Of a DNA stretch of 37,880 bases, positions 14,771 through 26,231 are shown in pieces (within the stretch, counting starts at the first letter, position 1; each line of letters begins with the position of its first letter). The position numbers and the translations under genes were made by a program. Source of the DNA: a virus. The notes beneath the pieces were generated by a model, which worked only from the letters and a program-made list of their open reading frames with translations, was not told where the DNA came from and did not search any database. The DNA lies in the IMG/VR virus record IMGVR_UViG_3300037193_001987, positions 1-37,880 of that record; one strand, 5' to 3'.

Positions 14771-15087
14771 CCGGGGACCGTGCCCCCCTGCGTTCCACCG
14801 TGGACATCAGCGAACCGCTTGCCGCTGCTTGGAACAACGTCGCCGAAGCGGGCCCCGAAGACGGCCCGTGGGGCGAACTGATGGCCACCTACGTGGAACT
14901 GGGCGAACTGATGGAGCGGTGGAACCGCTCCGACTTGGACATGACCGACACCGAGTACATCGAGGCGTGCGACGAACTGGTGGAGCGCCTCCAAGTGCTC
15001 GGCTCCGCGCACAGCCGGTACTTGGATCAGCGGGACGCCGTTTACCACGCGCGGCTCGACAGTGACTTCCGGACGGAGAACGGCTGA
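14767..15087 (+). CDS. Acidic helical hypothetical protein
   Basis: 106 residues, strongly acidic (for example EAGPEDGPWGELMATYVELG and SDLDMTDTEYIEACDELVER). Helical heptad-like pattern in the second half suggests a small coiled coil. It sits directly upstream of the replication initiator, with the stop and next start sharing one base (TGATG), so it may be a replication accessory protein. That role is positional inference. Confidence 0.55.
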   Translation: MTGDRAPLRSTVDISEPLAAAWNNVAEAGPEDGPWGELMATYVELGELMERWNRSDLDMTDTEYIEACDELVERLQVLGSAHSRYLDQRDAVYHARLDSDFRTENG

Positions 15088-16262
15088 TGGCACGCGAGTA
15101 CGCCAACATCTTCACGGCGATCTGGCGTGACAGGGATTTCCGTGCGTTGGCGAGTGCCGACCAACGCATGTACTTCGTGCTTGTCACCCAGCCGGACATC
15201 ACCGCGGCGGGCACGTTGCCGTTGACGGCGGCCCGATGGGCATCTCTCGCCGTGGACACCACGGCCGACGGGGTGCGTGCGTCGCTGGGCAACCTCGCGG
15301 CAGCCCGGTTCATCGGCATGGACCACACGACCGAGGAGTTGTTGGTGCGGTCGTTCGTCCGGCACGACAAGGGGTACAGCAACCGCAAGCGGCGGCCGGT
15401 GATCCTGCGCGCGGCCGAGGAGCTCGTGTCGCCGGCGCTGGCGTTGATGCTCGCTGAGGAGTTCCTGGCGCTCGGTCTGCCCACCGATGCCCTATCGGAT
15501 GCCCTATCGGATAGGGCATCCGATAGCCGGTTCGGAAAGGGCGCGGAACCCCCTTCGGGAGGCGGGGTTGAGCCCTCTCCCGAAGGGTCGGTGCTATCGC
15601 TGGCACTGTCCACACACGACAGCCTGTTTCCGCAGGTGGATAGCCTATCCGATAGGGCATCGGATGCGACATCGGATAGGACATCGACTTCTGACGGGGT
15701 TGTGGTTAGTAACTTGAGTGGTTCTATCCCGCATCCCTCAACCCTCACACCCGCCGCCTCCGGCCGCGCCGCCGCCAGCGACGGACCCACAACGCCGAGG
15801 AAGCCCAAGCGGGCCGCCCAACTCCCCGCGTCCTGGCAACCGACCGACGACCACACCAAACGTGCGGCCGGCCTCGGCTTGGACCTGGCCCACCAAGTCG
15901 AGTTGTTCCGGCTGCACGCCGAGACCAACGGGCGGACCGCGAAGAACTGGAACGCCGCGTTCACCACGTGGCTCATCAAGGCCCCCGGCTTCGACCGCGG
16001 CAGCACGACCCATTCCGCACCGGTCCCGCCGAAACTCCCCGACAACGACGCCGCCGCCGAGTGGCTTCGCGCCGAGTGGACGGCAGGCCGCGTCCGGCAG
16101 GTCGAGCAGCGCACCGGCCTGCACTACCCGCGGCCCGATCTCCCCGCCAACGTGTCCGGGCGTGAGGCGTCCGAGCGGTGGGCCACGGACCACGCCCGCC
16201 AGTGGATCACCGCCAACCACGAACTGATCATCACCCGACTCACCACGAGGAACGCATCGTGA
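15087..16262 (+). CDS. Replication initiator/helicase-loader-like protein containing iterons
   Basis: 391 residues. The N-terminal ~115 (MAREYANIFTAIWRDRDFRA, LASADQRMYFVLVTQPDITA, RFIGMDHTTEELLVRSFVRH) resemble the winged-helix N-domain of phage replisome organisers. The C-terminal part (about 245-391: AGLGLDLAHQVELFRLHAET, NWNAAFTTWLI) resembles the domain that contacts helicase. Between them lies a disordered linker whose DNA carries two clusters of 12-nt repeats, in frame, encoding D-x-x-S tetrapeptides at residues 134-145 and 185-200. This mirrors lambda O and related initiators that bind iterons inside their own gene. The DnaB gene follows with a 4-nt overlap. Confidence 0.78.
   Translation: MAREYANIFTAIWRDRDFRALASADQRMYFVLVTQPDITAAGTLPLTAARWASLAVDTTADGVRASLGNLAAARFIGMDHTTEELLVRSFVRHDKGYSNRKRRPVILRAAEELVSPALALMLAEEFLALGLPTDALSDALSDRASDSRFGKGAEPPSGGGVEPSPEGSVLSLALSTHDSLFPQVDSLSDRASDATSDRTSTSDGVVVSNLSGSIPHPSTLTPAASGRAAASDGPTTPRKPKRAAQLPASWQPTDDHTKRAAGLGLDLAHQVELFRLHAETNGRTAKNWNAAFTTWLIKAPGFDRGSTTHSAPVPPKLPDNDAAAEWLRAEWTAGRVRQVEQRTGLHYPRPDLPANVSGREASERWATDHARQWITANHELIITRLTTRNAS
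15486..15528. repeat. Iteron cluster 1 (candidate origin)
   Basis: Three contiguous 12-mers: GATGCCCTATCG (15486-15497), the identical GATGCCCTATCG (15498-15509) and GATAGGGCATCC (15510-15521), then a partial GATAGCC. The last two make the palindrome GCCCTATCGGATAGGGC. In frame they encode DALS-DALS-DRAS. Confidence 0.75.
15551..15587. repeat. Inverted repeat between iteron clusters
   Basis: CCCTTCGGGAG (15551-15561) pairs perfectly with CTCCCGAAGGG (15577-15587), an 11-bp stem with a 15-nt loop, midway between the two iteron clusters. It may extrude or help organise the origin complex. Confidence 0.6.
15639..15730. repeat. Iteron cluster 2 with adjacent AT-rich stretch (candidate origin)
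   Basis: Four contiguous 12-mers: GATAGCCTATCC (15639), GATAGGGCATCG (15651), GATGCGACATCG (15663) and GATAGGACATCG (15675-15686). CGATAGGGCATC at 15650-15661 is the exact reverse complement of the 12-mer in cluster 1. Immediately to the right, 15701-15730 is about 57% A/T in an otherwise very GC-rich gene, a plausible unwinding element. Confidence 0.72.
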
Positions 16263-17641
16263 GCACCCCCGCCACCGACCCGCTGCGGCCCATCGACGCC
16301 GAGTCCTACCTCGTCAACCTCCTGACCCCCATCACCCGCCGCGCCCTGCGCGACGAGGCACTCACCCGGGTCGACCCCGGACATTTCAGCGACCCCATGT
16401 TCGAAGCCCTGTGGAACGCCGCACGGGCACTACGCGACGCCGACACCCCGATCAGCGCCCGGACCCTCATCGGCCGCCTGAAGGACGACCTGCCCAGCCG
16501 CAGCGCAGAACCCCACAACAGCGTCCAACGCGCCCAACGCTTCCTCGACCGCAACGCGGGCGTCATTCCCGAGGTGGCGGAGTTCCCGCACGCGATCCAG
16601 ACCGTCATCCGGTGCGGCAAGGTCCGCGGACTGCTGGTCACCCTCGACCAGATCAAGCAACTCGCGGTCGACGCGGACGACCCGTCACAGGCGCTCGGCA
16701 CGGCGTTCGAGATGCTCGGCAAACTCGACAGCCACACCGCCAGCGCCGACGCCAACGTCCACGAGTATGCCGACCTTCTCGACCAGTTCATCGAAGCCCA
16801 GAACAGCCCGGACACCGCGCTGGTGATTCCGACGCCGTGGCCCGATCTGAACGATCTTCTGCTGGGTGGTCTCCGCGCGGGCCGGATGTACGTGGTCGGC
16901 GGCAGGCCCGGTGACGGCAAGTCGATCTCTGCGTTGCAGATCGCCCAACACGCCGCCCAACTGGGGCATCACGCGCTGGTGTTCTCCGCCGAGATGGGGG
17001 CAGCCGAAGTCACCGACCGGATGGTATCCGCCGGTGCCGTGGTCGAGCAGTCCCAGATCACCCGCCGGGGACTGGACCGAGACGGGTGGCGGCGGGTCAA
17101 CGAATACACCGAGCGGGCTCGGTCATTCCCGATCACCGTGGTCGACAAGCCGAAGCTGACCATGCCCTACATCAAGGCGGTCGCCCGGGAAGCCAAGCGC
17201 AGGCACGGGACCAGCGTGGTCGCGGTGGACTACCTCCAGTTGGTGGGCAGCGACAGTCGCGGCCAGCAGCGGGAGCAGGAAGTGTCGGAGATCAGCCGCA
17301 GCATCAAGCAGTTGTCGCGCGAACTGGACGTCGCGGTCGTGGTCGCCGCGCAGCTGAACCGGGAGAACGTCCGCCACAACCGGCGCCCAGGTGCCGCGGA
17401 CCTTCGCGAGTCCGGAGGCATCGAAGCCGACGCCGACGTGATCATCCTGCACTGGCGGCCCCCGATCGAGGAGGGCGACCGCAAGGGCGAACCCAGCTTG
17501 GTCGTGCAGCTCGACGTGGCCAAAAACCGCATCGGCCGTACCGGCTGGGTCGAACTGGAATGGCGTGCCCACTACGCCACGATCGGCGACGTCTTCCGGC
17601 AGAGCAACGTGGTCGAGTTCCGCCCACGAGAAGTGTCATGA
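16259..17641 (+). CDS. dnaB: Replicative DNA helicase, DnaB family
   Basis: 460 residues, the normal length. The N-terminal helical domain (about 10-110, SYLVNLLTPITRRALRDEAL) is followed by the RecA-like motor: Walker A GGRPGDGKS (214-222), LVFSAEMGAAEVTDRM, Walker B VVAVDYLQL (D324), motif H4-like VVVAAQLNRENVRHNRRPGA and the DLRESGGIEADADVIILHWR segment with the arginine-finger region near its end. It unwinds the phage replication fork as a hexamer and is presumably loaded by the initiator encoded upstream. GTG 16259 overlaps the initiator stop. Confidence 0.93.
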   Translation: MSTPATDPLRPIDAESYLVNLLTPITRRALRDEALTRVDPGHFSDPMFEALWNAARALRDADTPISARTLIGRLKDDLPSRSAEPHNSVQRAQRFLDRNAGVIPEVAEFPHAIQTVIRCGKVRGLLVTLDQIKQLAVDADDPSQALGTAFEMLGKLDSHTASADANVHEYADLLDQFIEAQNSPDTALVIPTPWPDLNDLLLGGLRAGRMYVVGGRPGDGKSISALQIAQHAAQLGHHALVFSAEMGAAEVTDRMVSAGAVVEQSQITRRGLDRDGWRRVNEYTERARSFPITVVDKPKLTMPYIKAVAREAKRRHGTSVVAVDYLQLVGSDSRGQQREQEVSEISRSIKQLSRELDVAVVVAAQLNRENVRHNRRPGAADLRESGGIEADADVIILHWRPPIEEGDRKGEPSLVVQLDVAKNRIGRTGWVELEWRAHYATIGDVFRQSNVVEFRPREVS

Positions 17642-24943: not shown

Positions 24944-24947
24944 CGCG

Positions 24948-26231
24948 ATGACCTATCGCATCGACAAGCTGACCGCCGGGCAGGAAGACCAACTCCCGGC
25001 CATCCGTGACGAATGGCTCGCCCACGGCCTGTCCACCGCCCCCGCGAACCGCGAAGCCGCCGTCGCGGGCGTCAACGCCGCCTACCAGGCTGCCGGGCTG
25101 GAGCCGCCGCGCATCGTCATCTGGCTCGACTCGCCGCTCGCTGGCTGCATCGGTGCCGCCTACCTCCAAGCCATACTCGGGGACCAGGTCTGGAACCAGG
25201 TCTGGAACCAGGTCGGGGACCAGGTCCGGGGCCAGGTCGGGGACCAGGTCGGGGACCAGGTCTGGAACCAGGTCGGGGACCAGGTCGGGGACCAGGTCGG
25301 GGACCAGGTCTGGAACCAGGTCTGGAACCAGGTCTGGGACCAGGTCTGGGACCAGGTCCGGGGCCAGGTCGGGGACCAGGTCTGGAACCAGGTCGGGGAC
25401 CAGGTCCGGGACCAGGTCTGGAACCAGGTCTGGAACCAGGTCTGGAACCAGGTCGGGGACCAGGTCGGGGACCAGGTCGGGGACCAGGTCCGGGGCCAGG
25501 TCGGGGACCAGGTCTGGAACCAGGTCGGGGGCCAGGTCCGGGGCCAGGTCCGGGGCCAGGTGTACCGGCAGATGTCCAATGTGGTCTACGGACAACACGA
25601 AGCCGCCTGGCTCGCCTTCTGCGACACCTTCCGGCGCTTCGGCCTCGACGACGTGTGCGGCCGGCTCGCCGGGCTCATGCAGGTCGCCCAGTCCGCTGGC
25701 TGGTGGTGGCCGATGCGTGGTGCCGTTGTCCTCACCGAGCGCCCACGCGTGATCCACCGGGACAACCAGGGCCGGCTGCACTGCGAAACCGGCCCCGCGA
25801 TGGTGTACCCCGACGGCTGGCCGATCTACGCCTGGCACGGAACCCGTGTACCTGCGGATCTGATCGAGCCCGGCTGGTCCATCGAGCAGGTCTTCGAGGA
25901 GCGCAACGCCGAGGTCCGCCGATGCGCAATCGAACGACTCGGCTGGGACCAGTTCGTCCAGGAATCCGGACTCAGGCTGGTCGCGAAAGCCCCCGACCCG
26001 GGCAACGCCCCGTACTACCTGGCGCTCTACGACCTGCCCGAGTCACTGTCGGACATGTACGACGACGACGCCCGGATCCTGCTGTGCGTCAACGGGACCG
26101 TCGAGCCCGACGGCGAACGCCGCCGTTTCGGGCTGCCGGTCCCCGCTCACCACACCGACCCTGTCGCCGCGGCGGCCGACCTGTACGGCTGGCCCGTCGA
26201 GGCGTACCGCCAGCTCGAAGTCCGTCGCTGA
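24948..26231 (+). CDS. DUF6745-type protein with 32 tetrapeptide repeats
   Basis: 427 residues. The N-terminal ~77 (KLTAGQEDQLPAIRDEWLAH, AGCIGAAYLQAIL) is helical. Residues 78-205 are 32 consecutive tetrapeptides of the type GDQV, WNQV, RGQV or WDQV, encoded by a 12-nt tandem array. The C-terminal ~220 match the DUF6745 pattern: AGWWWPMRGAVVLTERPRVI, HCETGPAMVYPDGWPIYAWH, NAEVRRCAIERLGWDQFVQE, ILLCVNGTVEPDGERRRFGL. Proteins of this family are widespread in actinobacteria, often with QV repeats; their activity is unknown. The repeats may form a beta-solenoid with stacked Trp/Asn and Gly/Asp faces. The next gene appears to be its constant companion. Confidence 0.8.
   Translation: MTYRIDKLTAGQEDQLPAIRDEWLAHGLSTAPANREAAVAGVNAAYQAAGLEPPRIVIWLDSPLAGCIGAAYLQAILGDQVWNQVWNQVGDQVRGQVGDQVGDQVWNQVGDQVGDQVGDQVWNQVWNQVWDQVWDQVRGQVGDQVWNQVGDQVRDQVWNQVWNQVWNQVGDQVGDQVGDQVRGQVGDQVWNQVGGQVRGQVRGQVYRQMSNVVYGQHEAAWLAFCDTFRRFGLDDVCGRLAGLMQVAQSAGWWWPMRGAVVLTERPRVIHRDNQGRLHCETGPAMVYPDGWPIYAWHGTRVPADLIEPGWSIEQVFEERNAEVRRCAIERLGWDQFVQESGLRLVAKAPDPGNAPYYLALYDLPESLSDMYDDDARILLCVNGTVEPDGERRRFGLPVPAHHTDPVAAAADLYGWPVEAYRQLEVRR
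25179..25562 (+). repeat. 12-nt tandem repeat array, 32 units
   Basis: The units end in CCAGGTC (or CAGGTG in the last) and start with GGGGA, TGGAA, CGGGG, TGGGA or similar: the three common units are GGGGACCAGGTC, TGGAACCAGGTC and CGGGGCCAGGTC. The array is unbroken and in frame with the surrounding gene. It contains no stop codon in several frames, including on the minus strand, so it creates long false ORFs. Confidence 0.95.

Follow-up and report, generated by a model that had tools for sequence, protein, structure and literature searches.

We analyzed a 37,880-bp viral record (hereafter the window, meaning the whole stretch of DNA at its full length) with a GC content of approximately 69%, whose genes include a tyrosine-type integrase, an endolysin, RusA, and a replication block. 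The replication initiator gene lies on the plus strand at positions 15087 to 16262 and encodes a protein of 391 amino acids. Residues 1 to 260 match phrog_3171, a PHROG family annotated as "replication initiation protein" (E = 5.9e-37), and phrog_8064 matches the N-terminal domain (residues 2 to 129, E = 6.3e-31). The initiator ORF overlaps by 4 nt with the ORF of a DnaB-like replicative helicase on the same strand (16259 to 17641), which we identified by matches to PF03796 (E = 9.1e-64) and phrog_19 (E = 7.3e-78). When we used the phrog_3171 profile to search a Micrococcales genome, we detected no match.

The AlphaFold2 model of the initiator has three parts. The N-terminal winged-helix domain (residues 1 to 130, encoded on the plus strand at 15087 to 15476) is predicted with pLDDT values mostly between 91 and 98 over residues 11 to 130. 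The linker that follows is predicted to be disordered, with pLDDT <50 for residues 149 to 218, and a confidently predicted small helical domain is located at about residues 241 to 300. The N-terminal domain aligns over 85 to 86 residues with 4pql (Z 7.1, 85 residues, rmsd 2.9) and 4pt7 (Z 6.9), both of which are entries for initiator N-terminal domains, although CRP-type domains tie with them. The N-terminal domain is the probable binder of the iterons described below. The C-terminal domain (residues 242 to 302, plus strand, 15810 to 15992) is DnaT-like, with a match to the DnaT family PF17948 (E = 0.00048) that scores 20.2 bits, under the curated cutoff of 25 bits, and it resembles phage records named "primosomal protein I." Judging by this sequence similarity, the domain probably contacts the helicase or binds single-stranded DNA. 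Neither RepA_N (PF06970) nor the lambda O profile was among the Pfam matches of the initiator up to E = 5. A sequence search of the full-length protein against the PDB returned no match, and a Foldseek search against the PDB returned no significant match.

The linker-coding part of the initiator gene carries seven 12-nt units, which we call iterons, arranged on the plus strand in two clusters. Cluster 1 (15486 to 15521) consists of GATGCCCTATCG, GATGCCCTATCG, and GATAGGGCATCC, with units starting at 15486, 15498, and 15510, and is directly followed by a partial unit, GATAGCCGGTTC, at 15522. Cluster 2 (15639 to 15686) consists of GATAGCCTATCC, GATAGGGCATCG, GATGCGACATCG, and GATAGGACATCG, starting at 15639, 15651, 15663, and 15675. 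An earlier note on this DNA had described seven 12-mers with the pattern GAT-N6-ATC or close variants; we recovered the seven units and their two clusters, but the core reads GAT-N5-ATC with a C or G after it. The note had also placed the units in codon phase within a disordered linker and had reported both direct and inverted copies, and these observations hold. All seven units start on the first codon base of the ORF and encode D-x-x-S (in order, DALS, DALS, DRAS, DSLS, DRAS, DATS, and DRTS), and the inverted copies include a perfect 17-nt pair (15492 to 15508 and 15510 to 15526). The core is nearly palindromic, such that one site can be read as either GATAGGGCATC (encoding D-R-A) or GATGCCCTATC (encoding D-A-L).

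We detected 10 GAT-N5-ATC sites in the 37,880 bp of the window, 7 of which are inside the 201 bp that hold both clusters. When we back-translated the same linker protein using the codon usage of the phage, we obtained 0 to 2 sites in 5,000 trials, compared to the seven observed. The probability of obtaining all seven cores given the encoded protein and phage codon usage is 10^-15.6, a value that is only nominal because it presumes independent units, and tandem duplication of some units would reduce their effective number. Overall, the linker of the initiator gene contains an array with non-random spelling. Elsewhere in the window, two of the three other GAT-N5-ATC sites (24946 to 24957 and 25920 to 25932) are found at the start of and within a gene at 24948 to 26231 (DUF6745), and the first of these overlaps the start codon, where it could be an operator or a chance occurrence.

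For comparison, we gathered related initiators from annotated phages and viral contigs and kept 121 non-redundant loci. The search of viral contigs used subsets A2 and A3, with A1 being too diverse to serve as a query. Because counts of repeated 9-mers and 10-mers over whole genes were swamped by GC-rich codon noise when compared to codon shuffles, we restricted the repeat test to the linker. Between -1500 and +2100 relative to the gene start, the excess of repeated 9-mers across the 121 relatives formed a single peak at nt 450 to 690. At this position, 68% of the relatives had an excess of at least 1.5, compared to 2 to 8% in other windows and 31% in the overlapping window at nt 300 to 540. 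Not all of the relatives yield detectable iterons; 40 of the 121 were significant against a codon shuffle that preserves the protein and its codons. Repeats in the same orientation were most often spaced by 12 nt (67 occurrences), followed by 24 nt (23), 11 nt (16), and 36 nt (8), with none at 13 nt. Among the 40 significant relatives, 29 use both orientations and 27 have motif copies in two or more codon frames, to which chance sites contribute in part.

The sequence of the iterons varies among phages: AACCCTTCC in P1312, Bran, and Whack, GAAGGGATC in Utz, GTTGACCCC in Eyre, and CTAACCCCC in Bubbles123. The close relatives L030, L031, L032, and L034 have GAT-type iterons in two clusters, as in the window, and L034 contains the exact window 11-mer GATAGGGCATC in another codon frame. 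In the complete records (the window, Whack, Eyre, Bran, Utz, and GAL1), the motif is approximately 9- to 26-fold over-represented in the initiator gene, which holds 8 of 15 motif matches in Whack, 8 of 12 in Bran, 8 of 16 in Utz, 8 of 23 in Eyre, and, more weakly, 4 of 25 in GAL1. The N-terminal domain and the iterons covary only weakly in sequence (Mantel r = 0.09, p = 0.05); in cross-scanning, iteron sharing climbs sharply above 70% identity of the N-terminal domain. The alignment of relatives that the earlier note had proposed as a check came out in its favor: the repeats are kept while the linker peptide changes.

We also ran the search in reverse, querying 2.9 million viral contigs purely by DNA pattern and leaving protein information aside. 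Three copies of AACCCTTC at 12-nt pitch occurred in 30 stretches, 26 of which are inside ORFs with the initiator N-terminal domain; the others are located 17 nt downstream of a short initiator (L191), in other replication-initiation families (L203 and L190), and at the edge of a stretch (one case). The GAT-array pattern occurred in 19 stretches, with 11 in the same initiator family. Outside the family, it was found beside a replisome-organizer ORF (L206), at a primase-like ORF (L210), and in DnaD-like or O-like ORFs (L213, L216, L219, and L224, with L222 being a near copy of L219), leaving only L217. A letter-reversed control at the same pitch detected three stretches, none in initiators. Searches at other pitches gave 11 stretches at 11 nt, including 5 in the initiator family, and 2 stretches at 13 nt, both in the family.

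In EastWest, Vibaki, L139, L087, and L191, and also in L206, the initiator ends soon after the N-terminal domain and the array is found past the stop codon, mostly at 12-nt pitch. Other small ORFs may extend into part of this DNA, and Vibaki has an annotated 47-residue hypothetical protein there; in the same phage, a CTCCTTAACTCC tract also comes after the post-stop array. In addition, the 11-nt pitch of some relatives traverses all codon frames. Together with the untranslated arrays of the same pitch, this weakens the earlier proposal that tetrapeptide phasing serves DNA and protein at once. Because arrays of the same kind occur untranslated after short initiators, we regard the array as a DNA element first and its phasing as a by-product, which, from the sequence comparisons, looks like the result of a C-terminal domain fused beyond an array that was already at pitch 12.

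Several other elements adjoin the iterons. Positions 15676 to 15728, containing GGGGTTGTGGTTAGTAAC, form an AT-rich stretch that is a candidate unwinding element. The AT content is 51 to 55% over 15676 to 15735 and 51% over 15687 to 15735, compared to 32% for the gene, confirming that an AT-rich stretch follows cluster 2, and 40-bp windows with an AT content of at least 0.525 make up just 0.17% of the record. The GTTGTGGTT portion of this stretch recurs in L030, L031, L032, and L034. A match to the DnaA box (CTGTCCACA, plus strand, 15606 to 15614) agrees with TTRTCCACA at 8 of 9 positions, and the box is perfect at the corresponding position in L030, L031, and L036. Among the relatives, exact DnaA boxes number 10 in linker bins compared to 3 in all other bins, an approximately 24-fold enrichment (Fisher p = 2e-7) contributed by nine relatives. 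A host DnaA box is common, but not universal, in iteron-type origins. In L112, L140, and L141, a perfect DnaA box (AGTTATCCACAG) is located approximately 90 to 120 nt past the stop codon of a short initiator and is followed by a hairpin-like inverted repeat.

A strand-asymmetric, G-depleted tract, TTCTATCCCGCATCCCTCAACCCTCACACCC, spans 15722 to 15752 on the plus strand, with four CCC runs and a G4-type motif on the minus strand. It is less regular than the tracts of relatives, most of which have a G- or C-depleted tract on one strand directly 3' of the iterons, often built of hexamers such as CTCCTA-CTCCTG or the inverse; in other phages, ACAGGA or TAAGGA hexamers trail the iterons. The longest strand-asymmetric tract is located at nt 540 to 660 in 73 of 108 initiator genes, and family-wide, AT content, strand skew, and 6-nt periodicity all peak in this interval. 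By analogy, the tract may be likened to the DnaA-trio. G4 motifs occur in 14% of 60-nt bins in the linker compared to approximately 1% elsewhere, but because they are found in just 46 of the 121 relatives, we claim no quadruplex role. Beside the tract, the palindrome TACGTA (often within GGTTACGTAAGTA) clusters family-wide at nt 600 to 720 of the initiator gene. The L219 (320 to 480) and L224 (1760 to 2100) stretches have GATAGGGTATCC arrays at 12-nt pitch in DnaD-like genes outside this initiator family, directly followed by perfect runs of ACAGGA hexamers (translated as GTGTGT), which parallels the layout of iterons plus tract.

Two further features do not contribute to our interpretation. 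The 11-bp perfect inverted repeat with a 15-nt loop that had been reported between the clusters exists (15551 to 15587, with arms at 15551 to 15561 and 15577 to 15587), but by eye it is not evident in the closest relatives, L030 to L034, and it is probably not core to the origin. The cumulative GC skew of the record tops at 15,721, which coincides with the proposed origin, with the best change point at 15,700 (permutation p = 0.0005) and a sign opposite to that of the usual bacterial origin. We dropped this change as independent support because it was not reproduced in six relatives.

In iteron-type origins, the initiator gene contains the repeats or lies near them; here, seven units are inside the gene and recur in relatives. 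Based on sequence comparison, we consider it very likely that positions 15486 to 15752, within the linker-coding part of the initiator gene, constitute the replication origin of this phage. The array could instead bind a protein for another purpose, such as autorepression of the replication operon, partition (parS-like), or the function of a different phage protein. Winged-helix proteins often autoregulate, the encoded protein is a putative binder of the array, and one study reports that some mycobacteriophages have a parS made up of five direct repeats on the downstream side of repA (PMC7157519). We nevertheless consider such a role improbable, given that the array is approximately 400 nt inside the gene, tracks initiator genes, and is adjoined by DnaA boxes, an AT-rich stretch, and a strand-asymmetric tract, which fit an origin. 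Even less credible is the view that a minisatellite grew neutrally in a disordered linker able to accept any 12-nt unit that keeps the frame: two units of cluster 1 are exact direct copies, and the linker is indeed predicted to be disordered, but slippage does not yield inverted copies, the rare codons GAT, CTA, GCA, ACA, and AGG are used throughout the units, arrays exist at 11-nt pitch in other frames and in untranslated DNA, and the array location is constant across diverged genes. That selection acts on the encoded D-x-x-S peptide, which might for instance serve as a flexible or modified SD-rich linker, is the least plausible explanation despite the perfect agreement of the seven window units, since same-pitch arrays of relatives encode NPSV, EGI/EPF, VDPS, and TPGP, the codon choice goes far past the needs of the peptide, and arrays continue past the stop codon of short initiators.

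If the region is an origin, the N-terminal winged-helix domain would bind the 12-bp iterons (GAT-N5-ATC) of both clusters, each helical turn taking up approximately one subunit or one dimer, and binding would wrap or bend the DNA. Under the resulting strain, the adjoining AT-rich stretch and the strand-asymmetric tract would open, assisted by host DnaA in those genomes that have a box. The domains of the initiator and the order of the genes suggest that the DnaT-like C-terminal domain, tethered by the disordered linker, would then bring the co-encoded DnaB to the exposed strand.

The principle of an origin embedded in its initiator gene is already known. The earlier note had compared this locus to the lambda design of iterons inside the initiator gene plus an AT-rich stretch, and this comparison is supported by the persistence of the repeats while the peptide drifts and by DNA-only searches that return to initiator genes. 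For lambda O, an origin inside the initiator gene is established, with iterons beside an AT-rich unwinding region and the helicase loaded next (PMC5043065). However, the four iterons of lambda are inverted repeats of 19 bp, and its loader, P, is separate from the initiator (PMC5043065), whereas here the units are 12 bp, a loader-like domain is fused to the initiator, the phage encodes its own DnaB helicase, and Pfam gives no lambda O match. For the RepA_N initiator of pSK41, the DNA that encodes the linker holds the origin, and the linker itself is dispensable as protein (PMC5703833). The window shares with this system an N-terminal winged helix, origin boxes within the codons of the linker, and a C-terminal domain, which in pSK41 contacts the replisome and here probably has a similar role (PMC5703833; PMC7145576). 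The pSK41 C-terminal domain contacts the DnaG primase, while the one studied here is DnaT-like and has a DnaB gene as its neighbor; the four pSK41 boxes contain 8-bp repeats that converge on a poly-A tract, compared to seven GC-containing 12-bp units without spacers in the window; and the initiator has no Pfam RepA_N match, its fold match to 4pql and 4pt7 being tied with CRP domains. A third comparison is with the RepA-like initiators of actinophages: for mycobacteriophage repA prophages, the accessible text of a 2020 study suggests an origin upstream of or within repA and identifies no iterons within repA (PMC7157519), and its phages Miko and Rachaly fall outside the present comparison.

In the openly accessible literature, we found no description of these actinophage iterons. 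That literature also appears not to describe unspaced iterons of 12 bp, the strand-asymmetric tract, arrays that move into and out of coding sequence, or the breadth of the pattern. More speculatively, and with somewhat less than even confidence, we suggest that a two-part origin may be common to phage winged-helix (DnaD-like) initiators across bacterial phyla. In such an origin, short iterons at approximately 12-bp pitch would be followed by a strand-asymmetric, hexamer-like tract (CTCCTN or its complement NAGGAG, and ACAGGA/TAAGGA in other phages) serving, much like the DnaA-trio, as an element for strand opening and single-strand binding, with both parts in linker codons or, if the initiator is short, just past the stop codon.

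Additional loci have in-gene repeats of interest. Thermobifida phage P1312 (L010) has twelve GGAAGGGTT-type iterons in ORF87, at about positions 56,731 to 56,990 of its record; the published skew-based guess places its origin near 38,440 (PMC4569894). A Micrococcales phage/prophage initiator (L004 / L007, 2560 to 3345) combines a different N-terminal domain with the same DnaT-like C-terminal domain, and its coding sequence contains GTCGCTAG-type repeats that may represent a further embedded origin. A RepA-like initiator in prophiGD102-1 (L026, about 1466 to 1690), again with a different N-terminal domain, has in-gene TTTGCGCGGA repeats spaced 11 nt apart.

To our knowledge, the origins of most actinophages, including mycobacteriophages and phages of Gordonia, Arthrobacter, and Corynebacterium, have not been mapped. 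The rule described here narrows the candidate origin to approximately 300 bp in many diverged phage genomes, making the start points of those genomes predictable and testable, and it puts compact replicons on offer for actinobacterial vectors. The rule also explains the repetitive, fast-changing linkers of these initiators. Arrays of a single kind are translated in some phages but lie outside the translated sequence in others; a low-complexity linker in a protein can thus be the shadow of an element in the DNA.
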